Assembly: GCF_003402975.1 (NCBI RefSeq)
Contig: NZ_QURB01000007.1
Location: 124,001 to 188,000 of the forward strand
Source of the DNA: Brumimicrobium aurantiacum
GTDB taxonomy: Bacteria; Bacteroidota; Bacteroidia; Flavobacteriales_D; Crocinitomicaceae
Direction: 5' to 3'
DNA length: 64,000 nucleotides
This document shows positions 23,552 through 48,076 of this stretch, one piece after another (within the stretch, counting starts at the first letter, position 1; each line of letters begins with the position of its first letter). The notes below the pieces were generated by a model. That model did not search any database and was not told the origin of the DNA. It was given only the letters and a program-made list of their open reading frames with translations. A program made the position numbers and the translations under genes.

Positions 23552-23642
23552 GTTTCAGTATTTTTCATAAAAATTTGCATTGACATAAAAATAATTCGAA
23601 CCTTTTTTTAAAAACTGTGTATTACGGAAAAAACCAAATGAT

Positions 23643-24803
23643 ATGAAGATGATAAAAACAGTTTTAGTACTCTTACTTGCCTTCCAAGGAGTCGCGCAAG
23701 TAAAACCACAAAAAGTAGAATCCGTAGTGAAAGTTATGCATGATTTTGATTGGTATACAACCCAATATGAACTCTGGGAAAAAGAATTAGAGAATAATCC
23801 TAAAGATGATGATGCTTGGATCAATTTATTCACAGCAGCCAGAATGGCGAAAATTATGGCCAAAGATTTAGAAACAAAAAATGCTTGGCTGGAAAAAGAA
23901 AAAGCTACAGTAGCAGATGTGAAATCTAAAAACAAAAATTCATTTTCTTATTACAGAATTCACTCATGGCATAATGATATTTGGAGTTCAAAAAGTAAAG
24001 CAGAACAAGATAAAATCATTAGTTATGCTGAAAAAGCCCATCAATTAAAACCTGAAAATCCAGGGATTTATCCTGATTTGATGAATATTTATGAGATCTA
24101 TCAAAATGATGCTGATAAAAAACAAGAAATCGCTGAATTATGGAAAGCTTCAGGTTATCATACGCCTGCTTTGATGGCTGTGACCTATAATGCATTGATG
24201 AATACAAGTGAAAATTCAATATTGATTACCGGAGGAGATAATGATACTTACCCTTTGTGGATAGCCCAATTAGCAGATGATTTCCGTGCTGATGTTAATG
24301 TGTGGAATATCTATTTGCTTGGTATTCCTGAATACCGCAATCGTTTATTTAAAGAAGCAGGAATACCTTCATTAGAATTTCAAGGTTATGACAAAAATAT
24401 TGTGCTAGACCACATTATTAAACACAAAGGGAATAAGGATTTGTTTTTCTATAGTAAAGGAATTGTAGCCAGTGATACAGCAACTTTCGAAAAACTATAC
24501 AATGTTGGCTTAATCTATAAATACGCAGAAGAATCATTTAATAATTCTGCCTTGATTGTAAACTTTTTTGAAAATAAATTTATTCTTGATTACCTAAAAT
24601 ATGATTACTTTCAAAGTGAATATCCTGAAATGGATAAAAGAAGAGCCTATTCTTATTTACCTGGACTGGTTTCGCTTTTTCAACATTATGAGTTGATTGG
24701 AAACAAACAGAAAGCCGAGGAAACAAAGGCTTTAACGCTAAAACTTAGTGAAGGCCTTCCAAATAGAGCTCAAATTAAATCAGGATTGGGACTTGACGAA
24801 TAA
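23643..24803 (+). CDS. Exported TPR-like protein with a GDNDTYP motif (first sigma-module sensor candidate)
   Basis: The 386-residue product has a Sec signal peptide (KTVLVLLLAFQGVAQ). Residues about 45-170 look like TPR-type helices (WEKELENNPKDDDAWINLFTAARMAK and AEKAHQLKPENPGIYPDLMNIYE). Next comes a Rossmann-like strand and motif ILITGGDNDTYPLWIAQ, followed by ADVNVWNIYLLGIPEYRNRL. A similar motif occurs, as far as I recall, in the soluble C-terminal part of large Bacteroidota DUF2723 membrane proteins. The gene ends inside the start of an ECF sigma gene. A clear paralogue at 45612 sits in the same position before another ECF sigma gene. A role as periplasmic regulator or sensor is inference. 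Confidence 0.72.
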   Translation: MKMIKTVLVLLLAFQGVAQVKPQKVESVVKVMHDFDWYTTQYELWEKELENNPKDDDAWINLFTAARMAKIMAKDLETKNAWLEKEKATVADVKSKNKNSFSYYRIHSWHNDIWSSKSKAEQDKIISYAEKAHQLKPENPGIYPDLMNIYEIYQNDADKKQEIAELWKASGYHTPALMAVTYNALMNTSENSILITGGDNDTYPLWIAQLADDFRADVNVWNIYLLGIPEYRNRLFKEAGIPSLEFQGYDKNIVLDHIIKHKGNKDLFFYSKGIVASDTATFEKLYNVGLIYKYAEESFNNSALIVNFFENKFILDYLKYDYFQSEYPEMDKRRAYSYLPGLVSLFQHYELIGNKQKAEETKALTLKLSEGLPNRAQIKSGLGLDE

Positions 24804-25386
24804 AAAGATAAATACAAATAGTTCTGATGAACAGCTGATGTCGTTCCTTCAAAAGGGGAGCGATTCGGCGTTTTCAATACTCTATGAACGCTATAGTAAT
24901 CGGATTTTATTCTTCATGTTTAAAATGTTGCGCAATGATGAAGCGAAAGCACAGGATTTCACCCAAGACATCTTCATTAAGGTGATTGAATCTGCTCATC
25001 AATTCAAAACGAATAAATCATTTAAGACTTGGATTTTTACCATCGCAGCAAATCATTGTAAAAATCATTTTCGGAGTGTCAAACATTTTGCGGATATAGA
25101 CCGTGAGGCAGGTGCTTTAACTTATGCTGTTGACCATGGAAAATCGATGGATCAAAAGTTATTTCAAAAGAGGTTAAGCATTGAAGTAGATAAACTGGCA
25201 TTGCATTACCGACAAACTTTTGTGTTGCGTTATCATGAAGAATTAAAAATTAAAGAAATCGCTGAAATTATGGATTGTCCAATAGGAACAGTAAAGTCAC
25301 GTTTAAATCATACCATAAATCACCTGGGTGAAAAATTGCAAGTCTTTAAGTCGTTGAGTGATAATTTTAAATTGAAAGAAAACTAG
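24748..25386 (+). CDS. ECF-type RNA polymerase sigma factor
   Basis: The protein contains sigma region 2 (LMSFLQKGSDSAFSILYERY, then DFTQDIFIKVIES and FKTWIFTIAANHCKNHFR) and region 4 (ALHYRQTFVLRYHEELKIKEIAEIMDCPIGTVKSRL). This is the two-domain layout of extracytoplasmic-function sigma factors. The frame is open from ATG 24748, which overlaps the upstream gene by 56 nt. A TTG at 24793 (overlap 11 nt) would start 10 residues before SDEQL, as in the paralogue at 46726, and may be the true start. It is followed after 5 nt by a membrane protein that is the likely anti-sigma factor. Confidence 0.9.
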   Translation: MKAFQIELKLNQDWDLTNKKINTNSSDEQLMSFLQKGSDSAFSILYERYSNRILFFMFKMLRNDEAKAQDFTQDIFIKVIESAHQFKTNKSFKTWIFTIAANHCKNHFRSVKHFADIDREAGALTYAVDHGKSMDQKLFQKRLSIEVDKLALHYRQTFVLRYHEELKIKEIAEIMDCPIGTVKSRLNHTINHLGEKLQVFKSLSDNFKLKEN

Positions 25387-25391
25387 AAATT

Positions 25392-26063
25392 ATGGAAGAT
25401 CAATTAAGAAAGCTTCTAGAAACAAAGGAGTTTGAACAACTTTCTAAAACAGAAAAGGACTTTGTGTTACAGCAAATATCTGAAGCGGAATATAGAACCC
25501 AATTTGAAAGCTTACAAATGATGAAGGAGGAAATGAAATCAGAAGCTTCAACTATAAAAGTGGATTCAGCTATTCCTCCTAATTTAATGGCTGCTTTAAA
25601 GAATCAAAAAGAGAAACAACAAGAGGAAAAACAATCAAAAATATTCTTTCTCGTTCAATCAAAAATACCTTTATGGTCAGCCGTTGCGGCCGTTTTTCTG
25701 GTGTTTATATTGTCAACTCCTGTATTTATCGATAAGGATATTAAACCAAGTAAAACTGGAGTAATTGCTTCCATTGACACTGTATTTGTAGATAAGATTA
25801 TTCGTGACACCCTTCAAATTTTCGTTCCAGCGGACACGGTTTATAAAACCATTTATGTGAAGGATCAAAACAATCATATTGCAGAAAATCGAATGACTAA
25901 ACCACAGGGGAAAACAGAAACAAAGGATGACATCACCATTGATTTGAAAGAAGCAATGGTTTTAGGTGGGTACACCAATGTTTTAGATTTCGAAGTTCAT
26001 CAAGAAGGACAAAGTTTATCAGAAGATTCCATTGGACAGAAAATTTTCGATTATACAAATTAA
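25392..26063 (+). CDS. Single-pass membrane protein, candidate anti-sigma factor
   Basis: The 223-residue protein has a charged cytoplasmic part (residues 1-90), one membrane segment (about 92-113, PLWSAVAAVFLVFILSTPVF) and a periplasmic part of about 110 residues with repeated Asp-Thr-Val/Leu motifs (IDTVFVDKIIRDTLQIFVPADTVYK). It contains no cysteine, so it lacks the zinc-binding anti-sigma (ZAS) motif. Its position 5 nt after the ECF sigma gene and its topology are those of an anti-sigma factor. The paralogous position at 47318 has a protein of the same layout. The role is inferred from context. Confidence 0.7.
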   Translation: MEDQLRKLLETKEFEQLSKTEKDFVLQQISEAEYRTQFESLQMMKEEMKSEASTIKVDSAIPPNLMAALKNQKEKQQEEKQSKIFFLVQSKIPLWSAVAAVFLVFILSTPVFIDKDIKPSKTGVIASIDTVFVDKIIRDTLQIFVPADTVYKTIYVKDQNNHIAENRMTKPQGKTETKDDITIDLKEAMVLGGYTNVLDFEVHQEGQSLSEDSIGQKIFDYTN

Positions 26064-26126: not shown

Positions 26127-27011
26127 ATGTCAAATGTAAACTTAATTATAGAAGAACGTGCCGCCAAAATTGGCGATTTCTTAGTCGGAAGGTTATTGCC
26201 TTTTAGAAAAAAAAGAATGGTTGGTCCTTTTATTTTTATTGATCATATGGGACCGGTAATGTTAAACGAGCGACAAAATTTCGATGTTCTTCCGCATCCA
26301 CATATTGGAATTTCTACCTTAACTTTTTTATTTGAAGGTAACATTATGCACCGAGACTCCATAGGCAGTGAAGTAGAAATAAAACCAGGGGCTGTGAATT
26401 GGATGACTGCTGGAAAAGGAATTGTTCACTCTGAAAGAACACCCGAATATTTAAGAAATAAAGAGGTGTTAATGCATGGGTTGCAAATTTGGGTGGCCTT
26501 GCCCAAACATTTGGAACAGATGGAACCACAATTTTCTCATGTTGAAGCTAAGGATATTCCTTCATGGAAAGAAGAAAACCTTGAGTTTAAACTTATCGCT
26601 GGTGAAGTTTTAGGAAGAAAATCACCTGTGGATGTATTTAGTAATTTATACATGATTGAAATTAAAAGTACCGCTAAACAAGAAGTGAATCTTGGTGATC
26701 AGCTTTTTGGTGAATCTGGAATTTATATTTTAGAAGGAAGTCTCTCAACATCAGAAAATACATTTTCTCCAAAACAAATTTTGGTTTCAGATAATTGCAG
26801 TTTATGTTCCTTTACAATGGAGGAAGATACCACAATTTACATTTTTGGTGGAGAAGCATTTCCCGAAAAAAGATATATCGATTGGAATTTTGTTTCTTCA
26901 GAACGTGAAGTAATCGAACAAGCTAAGGCGGACTGGGAAGCTCAAAATTTTGATAAAATCAAAGGAGAGGAAGATGAGTTTGTGCCTTACCCAACAAGGA
27001 AAAGCAATTAA
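26127..27011 (+). CDS. Pirin family protein (bicupin)
   Basis: The 294-residue protein is a two-cupin pirin. The iron-binding residues fall at His57 and His59 (LPHPHIGIST), His101 and Glu103 (GIVHSERTP), the same spacing as in human pirin (His56, His58, His101, Glu103). The C-terminal cupin contains LGDQLFGESGIYILEG. Pirins bind Fe and some oxidise quercetin; bacterial roles vary from redox sensing to metabolic regulation. It lies 63 nt after the sigma/anti-sigma pair and 82 nt before a run of small-domain genes, so it may or may not share their transcript. Confidence 0.92.
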   Translation: MSNVNLIIEERAAKIGDFLVGRLLPFRKKRMVGPFIFIDHMGPVMLNERQNFDVLPHPHIGISTLTFLFEGNIMHRDSIGSEVEIKPGAVNWMTAGKGIVHSERTPEYLRNKEVLMHGLQIWVALPKHLEQMEPQFSHVEAKDIPSWKEENLEFKLIAGEVLGRKSPVDVFSNLYMIEIKSTAKQEVNLGDQLFGESGIYILEGSLSTSENTFSPKQILVSDNCSLCSFTMEEDTTIYIFGGEAFPEKRYIDWNFVSSEREVIEQAKADWEAQNFDKIKGEEDEFVPYPTRKSN

Positions 27012-27093
27012 ATTTCGAAAAGATTACTGTCTCGATTGGCGCTGTGTGTTTAATATATTTACATTTATCGAACAAAAAATACATCCATTAGAA

Positions 27094-27546
27094 ATGAAAA
27101 ATATTTTTGAAAAAGAAGTTACAGAAGAAGTTGTTGCTAGAATCAACGCTTTAGATGCTCAGTCAATTCCGCAATGGGGGAAGATGTCTGTAGACCAGAT
27201 GCTAGCTCATTGTAGTGTAAGCTACGAATTAGTGTATGAAAATAAGCATCCAAAACCTAAAGGAATTAAAAAATGGATGCTTAAAACTTTAGTGAAAAAA
27301 GTGGTGGTCAATGAGAAGCCATATAAGAAAAATGGTATGACAGCTCCTGAATTTTTGATAGCAGATCAAAAAGTTTTTGATCAAGAAAAGAATCGTTTAA
27401 TTGCTTATATCAAGAAAACGCAAGAATTAGGTGAAAACCATTTTGATGGAAAAGAAAGTCATTCTTTTGGAAAATTGACATCTCAAGAATGGAATAATAT
27501 GTTTTACAAACACCTTAATCACCATTTAACGCAATTTGGTGTATAA
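27094..27546 (+). CDS. DUF1569 domain protein (DinB-like fold)
   Basis: I start at the ATG at 27094; an in-frame extension to 26950 lies over the pirin gene and looks like chance. The 150-residue product matches the DUF1569 pattern: IPQWGKMSVDQMLAHCSVSYE near the start and SHSFGKLTSQEWNNMFYKHLNHHLTQFGV at the end. The conserved His residues (His41, and the HLNHHL cluster) are like the metal-binding set of DinB four-helix bundles. No enzyme activity is established. It opens the closely packed operon that runs to 30686. Confidence 0.83.
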   Translation: MKNIFEKEVTEEVVARINALDAQSIPQWGKMSVDQMLAHCSVSYELVYENKHPKPKGIKKWMLKTLVKKVVVNEKPYKKNGMTAPEFLIADQKVFDQEKNRLIAYIKKTQELGENHFDGKESHSFGKLTSQEWNNMFYKHLNHHLTQFGV

Positions 27547-27561
27547 TTTAAAAACTGGTAT

Positions 27562-27930
27562 ATGAATACAACTCCCGAACATAATGAACGCATGGCAAAA
27601 ATGACTTTTGCATCGGTTTATCCACACTATGTTACAAAAGTGGAAAAGAAAGGTAGAACAGTTGAAGAACTGCACGAAGTCATAGAGTGGCTCACAGGTT
27701 TCAATGAGAATGATATCGAACGATTTATGGAGAATAAAGCCACTTTTAAAGCTTTTTTTGATGCTGCAAAACTCAATCCAAATGCACCATTAATTACAGG
27801 GATGATTTGTGGATATAGAATTGAAGAGTTGAAAAACCCCTTGACTAAAAAAGTGAGGTATCTCGATAAATTAGTCGATGAGTTGGCTAAAGGGCGAAAA
27901 ATGGAAAAAATCTTACGCAAGACAGTATAG
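27562..27930 (+). CDS. DUF2200 family protein
   Basis: The 122-residue protein matches DUF2200 along its whole length: RMAKMTFASVYPHYVTKVEKKGRT, then WLTGFNENDI and ITGMICGYRIEEL, ending KLVDELAKGRKMEKILR. It is cytoplasmic and probably helical. The family is widespread in bacteria and its function is unknown. It sits 15 nt downstream of the DUF1569 gene and 25 nt upstream of the YCII gene. Confidence 0.87.
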   Translation: MNTTPEHNERMAKMTFASVYPHYVTKVEKKGRTVEELHEVIEWLTGFNENDIERFMENKATFKAFFDAAKLNPNAPLITGMICGYRIEELKNPLTKKVRYLDKLVDELAKGRKMEKILRKTV

Positions 27931-27955
27931 GAGTTAAGTTGTAAAATAAAGAGTT

Positions 27956-28414
27956 ATGAATAGACTATTTCTTTTAGTGCTTTTTGGATTTTTATCATTA
28001 TGTGTTTTTGGACAAACGCCTAATTCGAATTATGATGAAGAGTTAGCTAAGGAACTTGGTGCCGATGATTATGGCATGAAAAAATATATTTTCGTTATTT
28101 TAAAAACGGGAACCAATAAAACGGAAGATAAAGCTTTTATTGATTCGTGTTTTGCTGGACATTTAAGTAATATTAAACGTTTGGTGGAAGAGCAAAAACT
28201 GATTGTTGCTGGACCATTTTTTGAAAATGAAAAAGATTATCGAGGACTTTTTATTCTCAATGTTGATACAAAAGAGAAAGCAATTGAAATCTTAAAATCT
28301 GATCCTGCAATAAAGGAAGATTTACTAAGCTCAGAGTTATTTGAATGGTATGGCTCTGCAGCTTTGCCGCTTTATTTAGAAGCGTCAGATAAAGTTTGGA
28401 AAATTGGATATTAA
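27956..28414 (+). CDS. Exported YCII-related protein
   Basis: The 152-residue product has a signal peptide (NRLFLLVLFGFLSLCVFGQ), then a YCII-like ferredoxin fold: KKYIFVILKTGTNKT, HLSNIKRLVEEQKLIVAGPF, YRGLFILNVDTKEKAIEILKSDPAI. The His in HLSNIKRL and the following GPF turn are the family landmarks. YCII domains often occur as stand-alone small enzymes or fused to ECF sigma-linked proteins. The signal peptide is unusual for the family and places it in the periplasm. It is part of the 27094-30686 operon. Confidence 0.82.
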   Translation: MNRLFLLVLFGFLSLCVFGQTPNSNYDEELAKELGADDYGMKKYIFVILKTGTNKTEDKAFIDSCFAGHLSNIKRLVEEQKLIVAGPFFENEKDYRGLFILNVDTKEKAIEILKSDPAIKEDLLSSELFEWYGSAALPLYLEASDKVWKIGY

Positions 28415-28435
28415 AAAGAATTAATGTAGATTCGT

Positions 28436-28858
28436 ATGAGTGATAAACCAAGAGTGACAGGAGTTGGAGGGATTTTCTTGAAATCAACCAATCCTGATAA
28501 GATGAAAAATTGGTATAAGCAAAATTTAGGCTTAGAAACAGACCAATGGGGAACCAATTTTGAATGGTACCAAGGAAGTAAACCAACCGAAAAAGGATTT
28601 ACGCAATGGAGCCTTTTCAAAGAAGATTCTAACTATATGGAACCTTCTAAGAAAGAATTTATGATAAATTATCGCGTGGTTCATATTGAAAAATTAGTCG
28701 AACAATTAAAAGCCAATAAGGTTACCATTTTAGATGAAATTGAAACTTTTGAATACGGTAAGTTTGTTCATATATTAGATGAAGAAGGTAATAAAATCGA
28801 ACTTTGGGAGCCTGTTGATAAAGAATATGAAAAATTAGTAGAAGGAAGAACTAAATAA
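28436..28858 (+). CDS. VOC (glyoxalase/bleomycin resistance) family protein
   Basis: The 140-residue protein has the paired beta-alpha-beta-beta-beta modules of the vicinal oxygen chelate superfamily. The first opens VGGIFLKSTNPDKMKNWYKQNLGLE; the second ends HILDEEGNKIELWEP, which contains the usual C-terminal metal-ligand Glu. Substrate is unknown; relatives isomerise or bind small molecules. It lies 21 nt after the YCII gene and 8 nt before the SRPBCC gene. Confidence 0.88.
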   Translation: MSDKPRVTGVGGIFLKSTNPDKMKNWYKQNLGLETDQWGTNFEWYQGSKPTEKGFTQWSLFKEDSNYMEPSKKEFMINYRVVHIEKLVEQLKANKVTILDEIETFEYGKFVHILDEEGNKIELWEPVDKEYEKLVEGRTK

Positions 28859-28866
28859 GTTTGAAG

Positions 28867-29412
28867 ATGAAAGCATTAAAAAGAATTTTGATTGTATTGG
28901 CTATTATTTTAACCATTCCGTTGATTGTAGCTGCTTTTATAAAAGGCGAATACACAGTTGAAGAATCGATTATCATTAATCAACCAGAAGAGGTGGTGTT
29001 TGCTTACATTAAGCACTTAAAGAATCAAGATAATTTTACCAAATGGGCAAAAATGGATCCAGATATGGAGAAAACCTACACTGGTACAGATGGAACAGTT
29101 GGTTTTGTTTCTGCATGGAAAAGCGATATCGAAAATGTTGGGGTTGGTGAACAAGAAATCTTAAGTATTAAAGAAAATGAGAAGATTACTTTCGAACTTC
29201 GTTTTTTAGAACCTTTTGAATCAACACAAGAAGCGTATATGTCAACAGATGATCTTAATGAAAATCAGACAGAAGTAAAATGGGGATTTAGTGGTAAAAT
29301 GTATTATCCAATGAATTTTATGTTATTATTCATGGATTTTGAAGAAATGATTGGAGAGGACTTTCAAGAAGGACTTAAAAATTTAAAGGTTATTTTAGAA
29401 AAAAAAAAGTAA
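28867..29412 (+). CDS. Membrane-anchored SRPBCC (START-like) family protein
   Basis: I use the ATG at 28867; a TTG two codons upstream is less likely. The 181-residue product begins with an N-terminal hydrophobic segment (ALKRILIVLAIILTIPLIVAAFI) followed by the SRPBCC start YTVEESIIINQPEEVVFAYI. WAKMDPDMEKTY and GKMYYPMNFMLLFMDFEEMIGEDFQEGLKNLK are typical of polyketide-cyclase-like proteins of this phylum. These proteins bind hydrophobic ligands in a helix-grip fold. Its stop overlaps the next start (TAATG). Confidence 0.86.
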   Translation: MKALKRILIVLAIILTIPLIVAAFIKGEYTVEESIIINQPEEVVFAYIKHLKNQDNFTKWAKMDPDMEKTYTGTDGTVGFVSAWKSDIENVGVGEQEILSIKENEKITFELRFLEPFESTQEAYMSTDDLNENQTEVKWGFSGKMYYPMNFMLLFMDFEEMIGEDFQEGLKNLKVILEKKK

Positions 29413-29795
29413 TGGATAAAGGAATGAAACTAGGCGCATTTTCTGTAAGTCTGACAGTAAAAGATATTCATAAGTCGAAAGCGTTTTATGAAAAATTAGG
29501 CTTCAAAGAGAAAGGAGGAAATATTGATCAAAATTGGATAGTACTCAAAAATGGAGATGCCGTTATCGGACTATTTCAAGGGATGTTTGAAGAAAACATA
29601 TTGACCTTCAATCCTGGATGGGATGGTGATGCACAAAATATTGAGGATTTTGATGATGTGAGAAAAATTCAAGAACATTTGAAAAATCAAAATGTAGATT
29701 TAATCAAGGAGGCTGATGCATCAACAGAAGGACCAGAACATATTTCGTTGAAAGATCCAGATGGAAATGTAATTCTTATTGACCAACACAGATAA
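29412..29795 (+). CDS. VOC family protein, second copy in the operon
   Basis: The 127-residue protein is a single VOC domain unit: LGAFSVSLTVKDIHKSKAFYEKLGF, KNGDAVIGLFQG and HISLKDPDGNVILIDQ, with the terminal metal-ligand Asp/Glu position occupied by Asp. It is only distantly related to the VOC protein three genes upstream. Its ATG shares a base with the stop of the SRPBCC gene, and the next gene begins 2 nt after its stop. Its substrate is unknown. Confidence 0.88.
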   Translation: MDKGMKLGAFSVSLTVKDIHKSKAFYEKLGFKEKGGNIDQNWIVLKNGDAVIGLFQGMFEENILTFNPGWDGDAQNIEDFDDVRKIQEHLKNQNVDLIKEADASTEGPEHISLKDPDGNVILIDQHR

Positions 29796-29797
29796 TT

Positions 29798-30217
29798 ATG
29801 GCTGAAAACAAAACAAAAGAGACGGCAGCAAGTGTTAATGACTTTATAGAATCATTTGCAAATACAGAACAGAAGAAAAAGGACAGTTATGAGTTGATCG
29901 AAGTTATGCGTGAGGTCACGGGATTTGAGCCTAAAATGTGGGGTCCGTCCATAATTGGTTTTGGTTCGTATCATTATAAATATGCAAGCGGACATGAAGG
30001 AGACGCGCCACTTGTAGGCTTTTCACCAAGAAAAACAGCAATATCTTTATATGTTTTTACAGGTTTAGACGAACATGAAGATATACTTGAGAATTTAGGG
30101 AAATTCCGAAAAGGAAAAGCATGTATTTATGTAAAGAATAATGCTGATATCGACTTGGAAGAATTGAAAAAAATTATGAATCACACGATTGAATTCTTAA
30201 AAAGAACTTATGAATAA
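29798..30217 (+). CDS. DUF1801 domain protein (YdhG-like)
   Basis: The 139-residue protein fits DUF1801: SVNDFIESFANTEQKKKDSYELIEVMREVTG, then KMWGPSIIGFGSYHYKYASGHEG and VGFSPRKTAISLYV, ending ACIYVKNNADIDLEELKKIM. It is cytoplasmic with a frataxin-like fold as far as known for the family; the function is not established. The next gene overlaps its last 8 nt, which supports cotranslation. Confidence 0.9.
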   Translation: MAENKTKETAASVNDFIESFANTEQKKKDSYELIEVMREVTGFEPKMWGPSIIGFGSYHYKYASGHEGDAPLVGFSPRKTAISLYVFTGLDEHEDILENLGKFRKGKACIYVKNNADIDLEELKKIMNHTIEFLKRTYE

Positions 30218-43575: not shown

Positions 43576-44157
43576 ATGAGAACTGTAAACCCCATTTACC
43601 ATCACTCAGACCAGATGCTCCTACAAGAGCGAAACTGGATTGAGATGGCCAAGAAAGACCCCAAGGAATTTGCCCCGTTGTACAAAAAATACCATGAGCA
43701 AATTTTTCGTTATATTTATCAACGTATGGATGATAAGCAAGCGGCTAGTGATGTCACATCACAAGTCTTTCTAAAGGCAATTAAAAACCTTAAAAGATTT
43801 GAATTTCGTGGACTGCCATTGTCTTCTTGGTTATACCGAATTGCGAAGAGTGAATTAAATCAGTCATTTCGAGATAACAAAGCGAAACGAACCATTAATA
43901 TTGACAATACTCAAGTCGCTACATTTATGGAGGTTTTTGAAGAAGAAACCAATAACATCAATAAAAAACGTTTGTTTAATGCCTTGAAAGAGCTAAACTC
44001 AACAGATTTACAATTGATTGAATTGCGTTATTTTGAAGGAAGACCATATAGAGAGATTGGTGAAATTATCTCTGCTAAAGAAAATAATGCGAAAGTTAAA
44101 ACCTTTAGGGCATTGGAGAAATTGAAAAAATCATTTAATAAAAATAACTGCTTATGA
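43576..44157 (+). CDS. Sigma-70 family (ECF-type) RNA polymerase sigma factor
   Basis: The 193-residue protein has region 2 (EFAPLYKKYHEQIFRYIYQRMDDKQAASDVTSQVFLKAIKNL and SSWLYRIAKSELNQSFRDNK) and region 4 (ALKELNSTDLQLIELRYFEGRPYREIGEIISAKENNAKVKTFRALEKLKK). It is not close to the other two ECF factors in the window. Its last 4 nt overlap the start of a 61-residue membrane protein, so they are translationally coupled. Its target genes are unknown. Confidence 0.9.
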   Translation: MRTVNPIYHHSDQMLLQERNWIEMAKKDPKEFAPLYKKYHEQIFRYIYQRMDDKQAASDVTSQVFLKAIKNLKRFEFRGLPLSSWLYRIAKSELNQSFRDNKAKRTINIDNTQVATFMEVFEEETNNINKKRLFNALKELNSTDLQLIELRYFEGRPYREIGEIISAKENNAKVKTFRALEKLKKSFNKNNCL

Positions 44158-44469: not shown

Positions 44470-45279
44470 ATGAAGTATATCTTAACATCGTTTGCATTAG
44501 TTTTTGGTCTTTCTGTAATAGGACAAGTAACAATCTTAGAAGAAAACTTTGATGCGCCAACCTTACCATCTACGTTTACACTTATCGATAATGATGGAAA
44601 TACTGTCGCAAATGATGTGCAGGAATATACTGAAGCATGGATCCCAAAAGAAGACCCAATGGATTCTTCAAACGGTACGGCTTCAAGTACTTCTTATTTT
44701 AGTCCTGTAGATAGAGCTGATCGTTGGTTGATTACTTCTCAAATGACCTTAGGTGCTTCAGGAAATTTTGTTTCTTGGAATACTATGTCTCACGACCCTT
44801 CCTTTCCTGATTCGTATAAAGTGATGGTTTCAACAACTGGAAATAGTCTTTCTGATTTTACCGATACATTAACTGTTGTGAGTAATGAAACTCCATATTG
44901 GTCGTCACATACTGAATCTTTGGAAGAATATGCAAACGAAACCATTTATTTGGCATTTGTAAATACTACCTACAACGGTTTTAAATTATATATGGATAGT
45001 CTATATGTTAGAGAACAAGATCCGTTGTCAGTTGCCGATGAGAAAATTGAGGTAGCTATTTACCCTAATCCAACAACTGATGTTTTAAATTTGTCTGCTG
45101 GTAATGCAAAAATTGAAAGCATTCAAATTTTCAATTCTTTTGGCCAAAAAGTGTTGGATAAAAATACTTCATCTTCTCAATTAAGTATTGATGTCAATCA
45201 CCTTGACAAGGGAATTTACTTTACATTAGTTAAAACTGATCAAGGTGTTTCTCGCAGTAAGATTATCGTAGAAAACTAA
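44470..45279 (+). CDS. Choice-of-anchor-J (cleaved-adhesin) domain protein with T9SS type A sorting domain
   Basis: The 269-residue protein has a signal peptide (KYILTSFALVFGLSVIGQ). Residues about 20-180 form the beta-sandwich of the cleaved-adhesin/choice-of-anchor-J family: EENFDAPTLPSTFTLIDNDG, DRADRWLITSQMTL, and YKVMVSTTGNSLSDFTDTLTVVSNE. The C-terminal 75 residues are a type A sorting domain (KIEVAIYPNPTTDVLNLSA to RSKIIVEN). It should be secreted by the T9SS and may bind a carbohydrate or surface ligand; this is inference. Confidence 0.88.
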   Translation: MKYILTSFALVFGLSVIGQVTILEENFDAPTLPSTFTLIDNDGNTVANDVQEYTEAWIPKEDPMDSSNGTASSTSYFSPVDRADRWLITSQMTLGASGNFVSWNTMSHDPSFPDSYKVMVSTTGNSLSDFTDTLTVVSNETPYWSSHTESLEEYANETIYLAFVNTTYNGFKLYMDSLYVREQDPLSVADEKIEVAIYPNPTTDVLNLSAGNAKIESIQIFNSFGQKVLDKNTSSSQLSIDVNHLDKGIYFTLVKTDQGVSRSKIIVEN

Positions 45280-45548: not shown

Positions 45549-45611
45549 TAATTTCGTAAATTTTGAACGATTTTAGAACACAGATGTACAGTTATAAAAA
45601 TAAGCATCCTT

Positions 45612-46721
45612 ATGTATAAATTACTAATATTTTTTGTCTTTTTATCTTTGAGTTCAATGGCGCAAATCAATACGCCCATTCGAAATCAAAATTCAAATTC
45701 AATTGAATTGGAGAAAAAACAATCTAAAAAGGTATTGGAAAGAGAGCCAGTAGAAGCCACAAATGCTGTTGTTTCAAATTATGAAGCTTTTACCTTAAAT
45801 GTGCGTTATTTGAAATCAGAATTGAATAATCTTGCTTTGTCATCTACACGTAAAACACCTACTCCAAAGCAGCAAAAGCAGTTTGAAGCGCAATTGAAAT
45901 ATATCAAATCCTTAGATCATAAATCATTCGATTATCATTTGCTAAATTATCAGGTTGGAAACTATGATTTTTCTAGGATCAAAAGTCTTAAAACAGCAGC
46001 TAAAATCAAACCGTTAGATTTTACAGTTTTAAAAGAGTTATCTGCCTATTATTATATAATTGACGATCAAAAAGATTTATCGAATCACCTAATTAAAATA
46101 GATCAACAGGGTTATTTTTCTTCAGATTTAATTGCTTTTGCAACAAATACATTGTTATCACTACCTAAAAAATCTGTTTTAGTAAGTCACGGAGAACAAG
46201 ATACTTATCCCTTGTTGATTCAACAAAAAATAAAAAATATTCGATCAGATGTGGAAATCATCAGTTTAGAGCATCTACAAAGTGAAGACTATCGTAAAAA
46301 ACTCAAAAAACAAGGAATGAAGATGCCCAACACAGAAATTATTGACACACATTTTTTTGATCAATTTTTAGCGTTAAATAAAAATCACAATATTGTTGTG
46401 GCTTCAACTCTGCCTAAACCTTACTTAATGAAAGTAGAAGGGATTGCTAATGCAGGATTAGGATTCGCTTATGAATCATCAGTTAAGGAAGAATACAATT
46501 TGAACATCTATCATCAATTAATGAAGCAGGCTATTCAGACACATATTGATACAGCTAAAGACCAGAAGATTTTGGTAAATTACTTGCCATATTTGTTTTC
46601 AGTTCGAAACCAAATGATGGAAATTGAAGACCAAAACTCAGTCCGTGAAATTGAATTATTAATTTATCAAATAGGTAGAGCTTCAAACACTTTGGGTAAA
46701 ATCAAAAAGATTATGAAATAA
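45612..46721 (+). CDS. Exported protein with a GEQDTYP motif (second sigma-module sensor candidate)
   Basis: The 369-residue product has a signal peptide (YKLLIFFVFLSLSSMAQ). After a low-complexity Asn/Glu/Lys linker, a helical region (about 60-185) precedes KKSVLVSHGEQDTYPLLIQQKI...RSDVEIISLEHLQSEDYRKKLKKQGM. This matches the motif and following segment of the exported protein at 23643 (ILITGGDNDTYPLWIAQ...ADVNVWNIYLLGIPEYRNRL). Both are directly upstream of an ECF sigma gene, here with a gap of 4 nt. Regulatory function is inferred. Confidence 0.72.
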   Translation: MYKLLIFFVFLSLSSMAQINTPIRNQNSNSIELEKKQSKKVLEREPVEATNAVVSNYEAFTLNVRYLKSELNNLALSSTRKTPTPKQQKQFEAQLKYIKSLDHKSFDYHLLNYQVGNYDFSRIKSLKTAAKIKPLDFTVLKELSAYYYIIDDQKDLSNHLIKIDQQGYFSSDLIAFATNTLLSLPKKSVLVSHGEQDTYPLLIQQKIKNIRSDVEIISLEHLQSEDYRKKLKKQGMKMPNTEIIDTHFFDQFLALNKNHNIVVASTLPKPYLMKVEGIANAGLGFAYESSVKEEYNLNIYHQLMKQAIQTHIDTAKDQKILVNYLPYLFSVRNQMMEIEDQNSVREIELLIYQIGRASNTLGKIKKIMK

Positions 46722-46725
46722 CAAT

Positions 46726-47316
46726 ATGGGATTATTTCGTGTAAATTATAATAAGCAAAGTGATGAGCAGTTAGTTCGACTCATGGCTAAAGGTGATGAG
46801 CGTGCTTTTGATATGATTTATCAAAGATACGGTGCTAAATTGGCTTATTTCTTTACGCGTAAATTGAAGCATGACAAAGAGAAAGGGGAGGATTTTATGC
46901 ATGATTTGTTTGCAAAGTTAATCGATAGACCAGAGCTTTTTGATTCAAGTAGAAGCTTTAAAACATGGATTTATTCTGTGGCCAATAATATGTGTATTAA
47001 TGAGTATAAGAAGATGGCAGTGCGTTCAAATACAATTAATGGATTATCTCCAGAAATACAAGTCTCTTCTGATAATCAACCTTTGGAGGATCAGCTCAAT
47101 GAGAAAAACTTTAGTAGTGATTTGGAAAAAGCAATGTCAAAATTAGATGAAAAACACCGTGAAGTATTTGTAATGAGACATATTGATGGATTATCAGTAA
47201 AGGAAGTTGCTGAAGTCATGAACATTAATGAAGGAACGGTTAAATCAAGACTCTTTTATGCTACCAAAAAAATTGCAGGCGTTCTACAAATGTATAATCC
47301 CGTAAACAAAGATTAA
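46726..47316 (+). CDS. ECF-type RNA polymerase sigma factor (paralogue of 24748)
   Basis: The 196-residue protein has region 2 (SDEQLVRLMAKGDERAFDMIYQRY, DFMHDLFAKLIDR, FKTWIYSVANNMCINEYKK) and region 4 (DEKHREVFVMRHIDGLSVKEVAEVMNINEGTVKSRLFYATKKI). It resembles the sigma factor at 24748, including the SDEQL start and the FKTWI segment. The gap to the following membrane-protein gene is 1 nt. The three genes form a tight unit from 45612 to 48076. Confidence 0.92.
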   Translation: MGLFRVNYNKQSDEQLVRLMAKGDERAFDMIYQRYGAKLAYFFTRKLKHDKEKGEDFMHDLFAKLIDRPELFDSSRSFKTWIYSVANNMCINEYKKMAVRSNTINGLSPEIQVSSDNQPLEDQLNEKNFSSDLEKAMSKLDEKHREVFVMRHIDGLSVKEVAEVMNINEGTVKSRLFYATKKIAGVLQMYNPVNKD

Positions 47317-47317
47317 A

Positions 47318-48076
47318 ATGGAAGATTTAATAAAAAATATTATCATCAACAAACGCTATTTTGAATTGAATTCAGAAGAGAAGATGTTGGTGAAAAAATA
47401 TGCAAAGAATGAGGAGGAGTTTGAAGCCTTAAAAATCACATTTGGTTCTGTTTATAATTTTAATGAAGAATTAAACGCTAAATTATCACCTGGGGTAAAG
47501 GAGAAGTTAAATGAGAGATTTAAAACAAAACATAGTGCTGAAAAAAATATTCAGTGGAATCAATTATTGTATTTCTTTTTTCCTCAAGATAGGCAATTTT
47601 ACCAAAAGCCTGCATTTCAAATAGCTGCAATTGCCTTGATGGTATTCCTTACAATTCCTTTTTTATGGAAGGAAAAAACGCCTCAATATGCAATAAACAC
47701 AACAGGAAATTCCATAGAAATTAATAAAGTTGAATTTGAAAATACAACTCCAGAGTCTGATAGAGTATCAACAGAAAATAATGTTCAACATTTAAAAGAA
47801 GTGCCTAAAAGTACTCAAGATGTTGTTTCTCCGCCACCGCCTGTTGCTGTAATAGAAGAGAACACTCTAGATTTAGGGGAAGAAGATGTAGTCATTGAGG
47901 AGGAATATGTCCTGGAGGATTATATGCTCTCACCACAAAATGAGACTACGATCTCAACTGAAAGGAGGGTCTCTAATTTGTCAGGAGATACACGTGTAGA
48001 ACATGCAGAAATTCAAAAATCAAATAAAAAGGTTGAGACTTCTGAAACTTTAGATTTGTTAATCGCTTTATATTAA
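47318..48076 (+). CDS. Single-pass membrane protein, candidate anti-sigma factor (second module)
   Basis: The 252-residue protein has a cytoplasmic part of about 98 residues, one membrane segment (about 99-117, AFQIAAIALMVFLTIPFLW) and a Glu/Thr-rich periplasmic part of about 130 residues with a PPPPVAVIEEN stretch. It contains no cysteine and so no ZAS zinc motif. The layout copies that of 25392, including the MED start. Position directly after the ECF sigma gene makes an anti-sigma role likely, but it is not shown. Confidence 0.7.
   Translation: MEDLIKNIIINKRYFELNSEEKMLVKKYAKNEEEFEALKITFGSVYNFNEELNAKLSPGVKEKLNERFKTKHSAEKNIQWNQLLYFFFPQDRQFYQKPAFQIAAIALMVFLTIPFLWKEKTPQYAINTTGNSIEINKVEFENTTPESDRVSTENNVQHLKEVPKSTQDVVSPPPPVAVIEENTLDLGEEDVVIEEEYVLEDYMLSPQNETTISTERRVSNLSGDTRVEHAEIQKSNKKVETSETLDLLIALY

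Follow-up and report, generated by a model that had tools for sequence, protein, structure and literature searches.

A conserved gene trio in Brumimicrobium aurantiacum: a TMEM260-related exported protein, an ECF sigma factor and a probable zinc-free anti-sigma factor

When a gene for an exported protein stands directly before an extracytoplasmic function (ECF) sigma factor gene, and a gene for a membrane protein directly behind it, do the three belong to one regulatory unit, and what would the exported protein contribute to it? This question is raised by a stretch of 64,000 nucleotides (nt) of Brumimicrobium aurantiacum (contig NZ_QURB01000007.1, positions 124,001 to 188,000; hereafter the window), which comes from a genome of 3.4 Mb. 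An initial annotation, made from the letters alone, had placed a three-gene module at 23643-26063, and the open reading frames (ORFs) and their order, A (exported protein), S (sigma factor) and M (membrane protein), were confirmed there. The reading that we favour, and hold to be fairly probable, is that this operon and a second one in the window are each an ECF module that responds to the state of the envelope and controls its own transcription, with an exported protein as co-regulator which resembles RseB in role and is not its kin.

All features described for the window lie on the forward strand. A1 (23643-24803, 386 amino acids, aa) is an ORF with a signal-peptide-like N-terminus, and its AlphaFold model agrees with the TPR-like helices and Rossmann-like domain that had been annotated; the motif GDNDTYP, seen in the sequence and in the alignment with relatives, occupies residues 198-204 (24234-24254). 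S1 is placed at 24793-25386 in a frame that is open from GTG 24748. Because S1 homologues in Brumimicrobium begin 8 nt ahead of the end of A, the equivalent codon in the window, TTG 24793, is the likelier start, which would give an overlap of 11 nt with A1. S1 matched Pfam Sigma70_r2 (1.8e-15) and Sigma70_r4_2 (2e-10), and the Pfam cut-offs for Sigma70 regions 2 and 4 were exceeded by both S1 and S2, so that the assignment as ECF sigma factors stands. M1 (25392-26063, 223 aa) completes the set. The second set consists of A2 (45612-46721), a paralogue of A1 by homology, S2 (46726-47316), identified by Pfam, and M2 (47318-48076, 252 aa), a paralogue in the role of M1. The second copy had been taken as an argument for a true functional unit. 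A2-S2-M2 is indeed present, but A1 and A2 are only distantly related (18% overall; A2 reads GEQDTYP where A1 has GDNDTYP) and the second copy is therefore an old paralogue, with a promoter and targets that differ from those of the first.

What kind of protein is A? The scan of A1 and A2 against Pfam and NCBIfam gave nothing above cut-off. The third match of A1 in its own genome is a 1330-aa protein with PF11028 (TMEM260-like protein O-mannosyltransferase, 9.3e-70), whose GDNDTFP aligns with the GDNDTYP of A. When a profile of 24 A proteins was compared with one of 15 TMEM260-like proteins by hhalign, the two matched at 99.7% (E 2.6e-27, 191 columns), A 178-364 being aligned with residues 608-897 of the TMEM260-like proteins, their soluble C-terminal region. 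Judged by this profile comparison, the C-terminal half of A and the soluble domain of the TMEM260-like enzymes are homologous. It carries the GDNDT(Y/F)P motif of that domain, which the initial annotation had not connected with these enzymes. With Pfam, the GT-C domain PF11028 itself was matched by neither A1 nor A2 up to E 1. Human TMEM260 was reached by the TMEM260-like profile through two separate matches (3.7e-18 and 1.1e-9), and the second of these spans the A-related region; the human protein reads GDLPGNS at the motif position, and the A profile alone reached it only at E 0.094. In the AlphaFold model of A1, with a mean predicted local distance difference test (pLDDT) of 92.7, helices fill residues 35-186 and are followed by alternating helices and strands, and Foldseek matched it to TPR proteins (best E 1.6e-3, low TM-scores). 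In four loci (L041, L042, L043 and L307) a formylglycine-enzyme-like FGE-sulfatase domain is fused C-terminally to A, and the sigma gene is still next.

The order of the genes is kept well beyond the window. In 59 related genomes, the window's own two sets not being counted, A was matched at 55 places by proteins of less than 700 aa. A sigma gene is next in 46 of them (38 of the first 39 loci, L304 and L305, and six more: L306, L307, L312, L316, L317 and L318) and not in 6; two (L313, L319) look like TMEM260-like genes cut by contig ends, and one (L314) is undecidable owing to a contig end and masked letters. A scan of named genomes yielded 80 loci. Among these, all 24 with a free-standing A, one of them in a Chitinivibrionia and four (L073, L074, L078, L079) in genomes already in the other count, have a sigma gene next, while none of the 56 long TMEM260-like loci is followed by one. 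The long loci were classed by an ORF length of 668-1131 aa (L149: 456 and 849) and by Pfam for L051 only, and some of their contigs stop within the gene or shortly after; at L096 a sigma match lies upstream on the opposite strand. With M2 as query, 25 of 40 genomes were matched, and all 25 matches lie in triads, of which 19 had been mapped before and 6 were new, triads in G015 and G022 being revealed in this way. The expectation of the initial annotation that homologues of A adjoin ECF sigma genes was thus borne out in 38/39 and 24/24 loci and in the 25 triads reached through M2. Across 55 triads (L052, L094, L095 and L105 set aside), pairwise distances were correlated between A and S (r 0.62), A and M (0.80) and S and M (0.69), values as high being reached in 0 of 2000 permutations each. 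The order kept in many genomes, together with these correlated distances, indicates a unit beyond chance.

In a sample of the phylum, the A profile matches 294 of 296 genomes, mostly through the TMEM260-like gene, and a free-standing A at E < 1e-25 occurs in 12 of the 296. Among 11 A genes from 10 genomes of this sample that were read more widely, a sigma gene is next in 6 (L188, L189, L190, L191 twice, L192) and no sigma gene adjoins the other 5 (L183-L187). At L190:4392-7550, A is flanked by two sigma genes, and a membrane-protein-like gene follows the divergent sigma gene, not that of A.

M1 and M2 have no cysteine, a single hydrophobic segment each and no zinc motif, as had been annotated for M1. 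The AlphaFold model of M1 places helices at 2-11, 19-28 and 31-54, a linker, a helix at 63-80 and a last one at 94-108 within the hydrophobic segment; its mean pLDDT is 65.9 overall, with 91-97 for residues 1-50, 62-68 for the fourth helix and low values past the span. Three helices, a linker and a fourth helix before the membrane are the layout of class I anti-sigma factors (ASDI) as given in PMC7406223, and the M1 model has this N-terminal three-helix bundle, linker and helix 4. In the triads of L191 (two copies) and L192 the third gene encodes a protein with Hx3Cx2C and a hydrophobic segment, and these rows branch deep, beside the TMEM260 rows; zf-HC2 is weak in the L192 protein (0.048) and was not matched in that of L191. 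Two points, the fitting helix layout and the Hx3Cx2C proteins that occupy the same slot in deep-branching triads, make it probable that M is a zinc-free and divergent member of the class I anti-sigma factors. The slot probably held a zinc-type anti-sigma factor early and lost the zinc later. The two triads of L191 (2039-4372 and 17164-19471), with their zinc-motif anti-sigma candidates, are very similar to each other and are separated by about 13 kb of the same contig.

M2-type proteins end in a conserved tail that the initial annotation had overlooked. Over 24 proteins of this type, the final 12 residues (DLLTALY-like; 48038-48073 in M2) scored +1.03 per column pair, as against -0.43 to -0.67 for control windows ending at least 18 residues before the end. 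The C-terminal stretch GQSLSEDSIGQKIFDYTN of M1 (26007-26060) is weakly conserved. This scoring was made with L052, L095 and L105 set aside and with L070 in neither the M1 nor the M2 group.

Both operons are preceded by promoter-like elements. Before A1, GAACC...TGTGTATTACG lies at 23598-23626; the element is exact here, and CGAAC...TGTGTA(T/A)TACG is common to 8 of 9 aligned A1 upstream regions. Before A2, TGAACG-N15-TGTAC...ATAAAAA was found with one mismatch at 45564-45600, TGAAC(C/G)-N15-TGTAC being present in 10/10 aligned A2 upstream regions. Near A, GAAC-N14-17 followed by TGTA, CGTA or CGTC occurs at 41 of 61 loci, compared to a mean of 0.9 and a maximum of 4 in shuffles that preserve single-base composition only. 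The strict S1 pattern has a single exact match in each of 6 genomes with A1 and none in 4 genomes without it. Relaxing the promoter pattern to 9 fixed bases gave no gain over the reversed control, and this version was discarded; the S1 pattern with two mismatches was at control level (16 matches in all versus 25 in the control). In G006 a 449-aa gene (L037:6546-7895) lies between the S1 promoter and A1.

For S2, predicted sites reach beyond its own operon. The strict pattern gave 47 sites versus 5 for the reversed pattern in 10 Brumimicrobium genomes. Thirty of the 47 were read, and 8 of these are A2's own promoter. For the other 22, an ORF starts 20-100 nt downstream in 21 (16% at random positions), and a signal-peptide-like start is seen in 20 (4.5% at random positions). 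Recurrent predicted targets are exported proteins of 300, 155 and 382 aa, as well as VWA proteins that also contain a carboxypeptidase-regulatory domain, and further ones carry WG, MORN or DUF4139 domains. In the window's own genome, predicted targets lie at C1:76265, C4:23974, C12:94805, C16:15472 and C22:50986. The site of the 300-aa target in the window's own genome, TGAACG-N15-TGTAC, is the variant of its own A2 promoter. In G007 there are no S2 sites, and neither the free-standing A and M2 nor the 300-aa target was found there; this is one genome and one event. Outside the genus, with own promoters excluded, 74 sites versus 21 reversed were counted in 30 genomes with a free-standing A, and 11 versus 6 in 19 genomes classed as lacking it, 12 of which lie outside the coverage of the M2 search and may hide triads. 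In a genome of a different genus, the gene for a protein similar to the 155-aa target (L303:7185-7742, IIAHKSHSG) lies some 2 kb from a triad.

From the gene order, the identity of the sigma factors, the homology of A, the conserved promoters and the S2 target sites, all of which are backed by computation, we infer how the module might work. The N-terminal cytoplasmic helices of M would hold S, and on the outer side M would continue as a flexible linker with a short tail at its end. A, an exported TPR-like solenoid with a TMEM260-related domain, would most likely dock onto this outer part, at the tail, and would set the stability or activity of M upon an envelope ligand, which may be an exported polypeptide, a glycan or a lipid carrier; in doing so, A might either restrain or activate. 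M would then release S, which would transcribe its own operon from the GAAC-N15/16-TGTA promoter, and released S2 would also transcribe several genes for exported proteins. The kinship of A to a glycosylation enzyme suggests what the exported partner may sense. As a speculative extension, to which we give little credence, A might be a free periplasmic receptor that reads the substrate of TMEM260-like enzymes, an acceptor polypeptide or lipid-linked sugar, so that glycosylation would be surveyed and signalled to the ECF sigma factor through the tail of M, which would then stand for a zinc-free anti-sigma family not recognised before, with positive feedback.

Several observations weigh against the co-regulator reading. 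Free-standing A-type domains without sigma genes exist (L044, L183-L187), and a GDxDT(Y/F)P domain with no adjoining sigma gene is also present in five exported proteins (L308, L309, L310, L311, L315; 612-667 aa); their motif lies near residue 270-300, no other Pfam domain is above cut-off in them, and they are a second free-standing family unlinked to sigma. The A domain therefore also lives outside signalling, and because of these five proteins, which like the other sigma-less ones had escaped the initial annotation, our confidence was lowered slightly. In a midpoint-rooted A tree with some long branches (computed without L094, L095 and these five proteins), the 6 sigma-less rows sit among sigma-linked rows and require 4 changes. 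Further points on this side are that the promoter pattern is missing at 20 of the 61 A loci (several of which show GAACC...TGAGTA by eye), that TMEM260 is not among the best 50 Foldseek matches of A, and that for M no match up to E 10 was obtained in the PDB profile search and Foldseek, and none above cut-off in Pfam and NCBIfam. Among the 31 M1-type proteins conservation rises just weakly, at about 13-24 residues before the C-terminus; behind the sigma gene of L190 no clear M is seen, and M of L105 is only 113 aa. Lastly, the genomes scanned with the strict S1 pattern hold no second exact site, and A1 could therefore be an output.

This last point leads to an alternative, in our view unlikely, that A is an envelope worker (chaperone- or adaptor-like) raised by the sigma factor while M alone senses. 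The position of A as first gene behind the promoter would suit such an output, as would the solitary S1 site and the A-type domains without sigma. However, of the three pairs A and M show the closest match in their distances, and A adjoins all 25 M2 matches, a strict retention that would not be expected for a mere output gene. The tail of M could also be read by a PDZ-type periplasmic protease, in the manner of DegS or AlgW, without being touched by A. M2-type tails are short, hydrophobic and at the extreme C-terminus, and DegS and AlgW are described as reading the C-terminal ends of outer-membrane proteins (PMC8545111). We consider this rather unlikely, as it leaves the retention of A with M unexplained, and no recurrent protease gene was seen in the triads by eye, no search aimed at proteases having been made. 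It is improbable that A is an enzyme with a GDNDTYP pocket and with M or an envelope glycan as its substrate. G198, D201, T202 and P204 are invariant across 21 A proteins and the motif is retained in TMEM260-like enzymes, but A lacks the GT-C domain, the motif is replaced in human TMEM260 and it varies in some A proteins, e.g. L066. That M is a membrane partner of another kind and the amount of S is the sole means of its control, as the autoregulatory promoter and the lack of a detected known relative of M would allow, is very improbable given the helix layout of M1 and the Hx3Cx2C proteins in the same slot.

The co-regulator reading has parallels in known systems. RpoE-RseA-RseB and AlgU-MucA-MucB likewise combine an ECF sigma factor, a membrane anti-sigma factor and an exported protein. 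Compared to the fold of RseB, the A1 model is of a different type, a helical array plus an alpha/beta domain, and RseB is absent among the best 50 Foldseek matches of A. A differs from RseB and MucB also in being related to TMEM260 and first in its operon. MucB is described as acting on the periplasmic part of MucA (PMC7400510), whereas the A-M contact here is predicted from the gene order and the M2 tail. TMEM260-like O-mannosyltransferases (PF11028; human TMEM260 structure 9rql) have the soluble C-terminal region in common with A, but they carry the GT-C membrane domain, and no sigma gene follows them in the 56 long loci. EcfO-Reo and Dma/Das of Bacteroides and Phocaeicola belong, like the present sets, to Bacteroidota and combine an ECF sigma factor with an unusual anti-sigma factor in the membrane, and their regulons are linked to the envelope (PMC13114119, PMC9308784, PMC13088901). 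Reo and Dma each extend to the outer membrane as a single protein, whereas M spans the membrane once and its exported partner is a protein of its own; with 223 and 252 aa in M1 and M2, and an M1 model that is strand-free and of low confidence after the span, a C-terminal outer-membrane beta-barrel was not seen. Class I anti-sigma factors share the helix layout with M1, but neither a sequence or fold match nor, in M1 and M2, the zinc motif was detected. The SM6 promoters of Flavobacterium psychrophilum are also flavobacterial and ECF-type, and are reported before envelope and secretion genes (PMC9723704); the triad promoters differ in having TGTA, and identity of the two was not supported. ECF modules with exported co-regulators are thus already known, and for a composition with a TMEM260-related partner, the A-sigma-M triad, no description was found in the titles and abstract starts of the open-licence PMC literature.

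According to PMC7406223, a recognised class I anti-sigma factor adjoins 6% of Bacteroidetes ECF sigma factors, versus a phylum average of 32%. The M family offers one testable answer to that gap, namely divergent zinc-free anti-sigma factors missed by profile searches, and the module supplies predicted promoters and target genes.

Other genes lie close to the triads. Directly after M1, small genes on the same strand (26127-30217) resemble, by eye, those of the pirin, YCII, glyoxalase and DUF1801 families, and no link of these to S1 was found. Near triads in other genomes, a response-regulator-like gene of 224-228 aa was seen by eye (L300:1468-2142, L303:5330-6010, L304:5866-6552). The window has a third ECF sigma gene (43576-44157), whose position close to the second triad is conserved in several genomes of the genus (L054, L057, L059, L060). 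Between this lone sigma gene and the second triad, an exported protein is encoded at 44470-45279, the C terminus of which resembles, by eye, what we take to be a type IX sorting domain.

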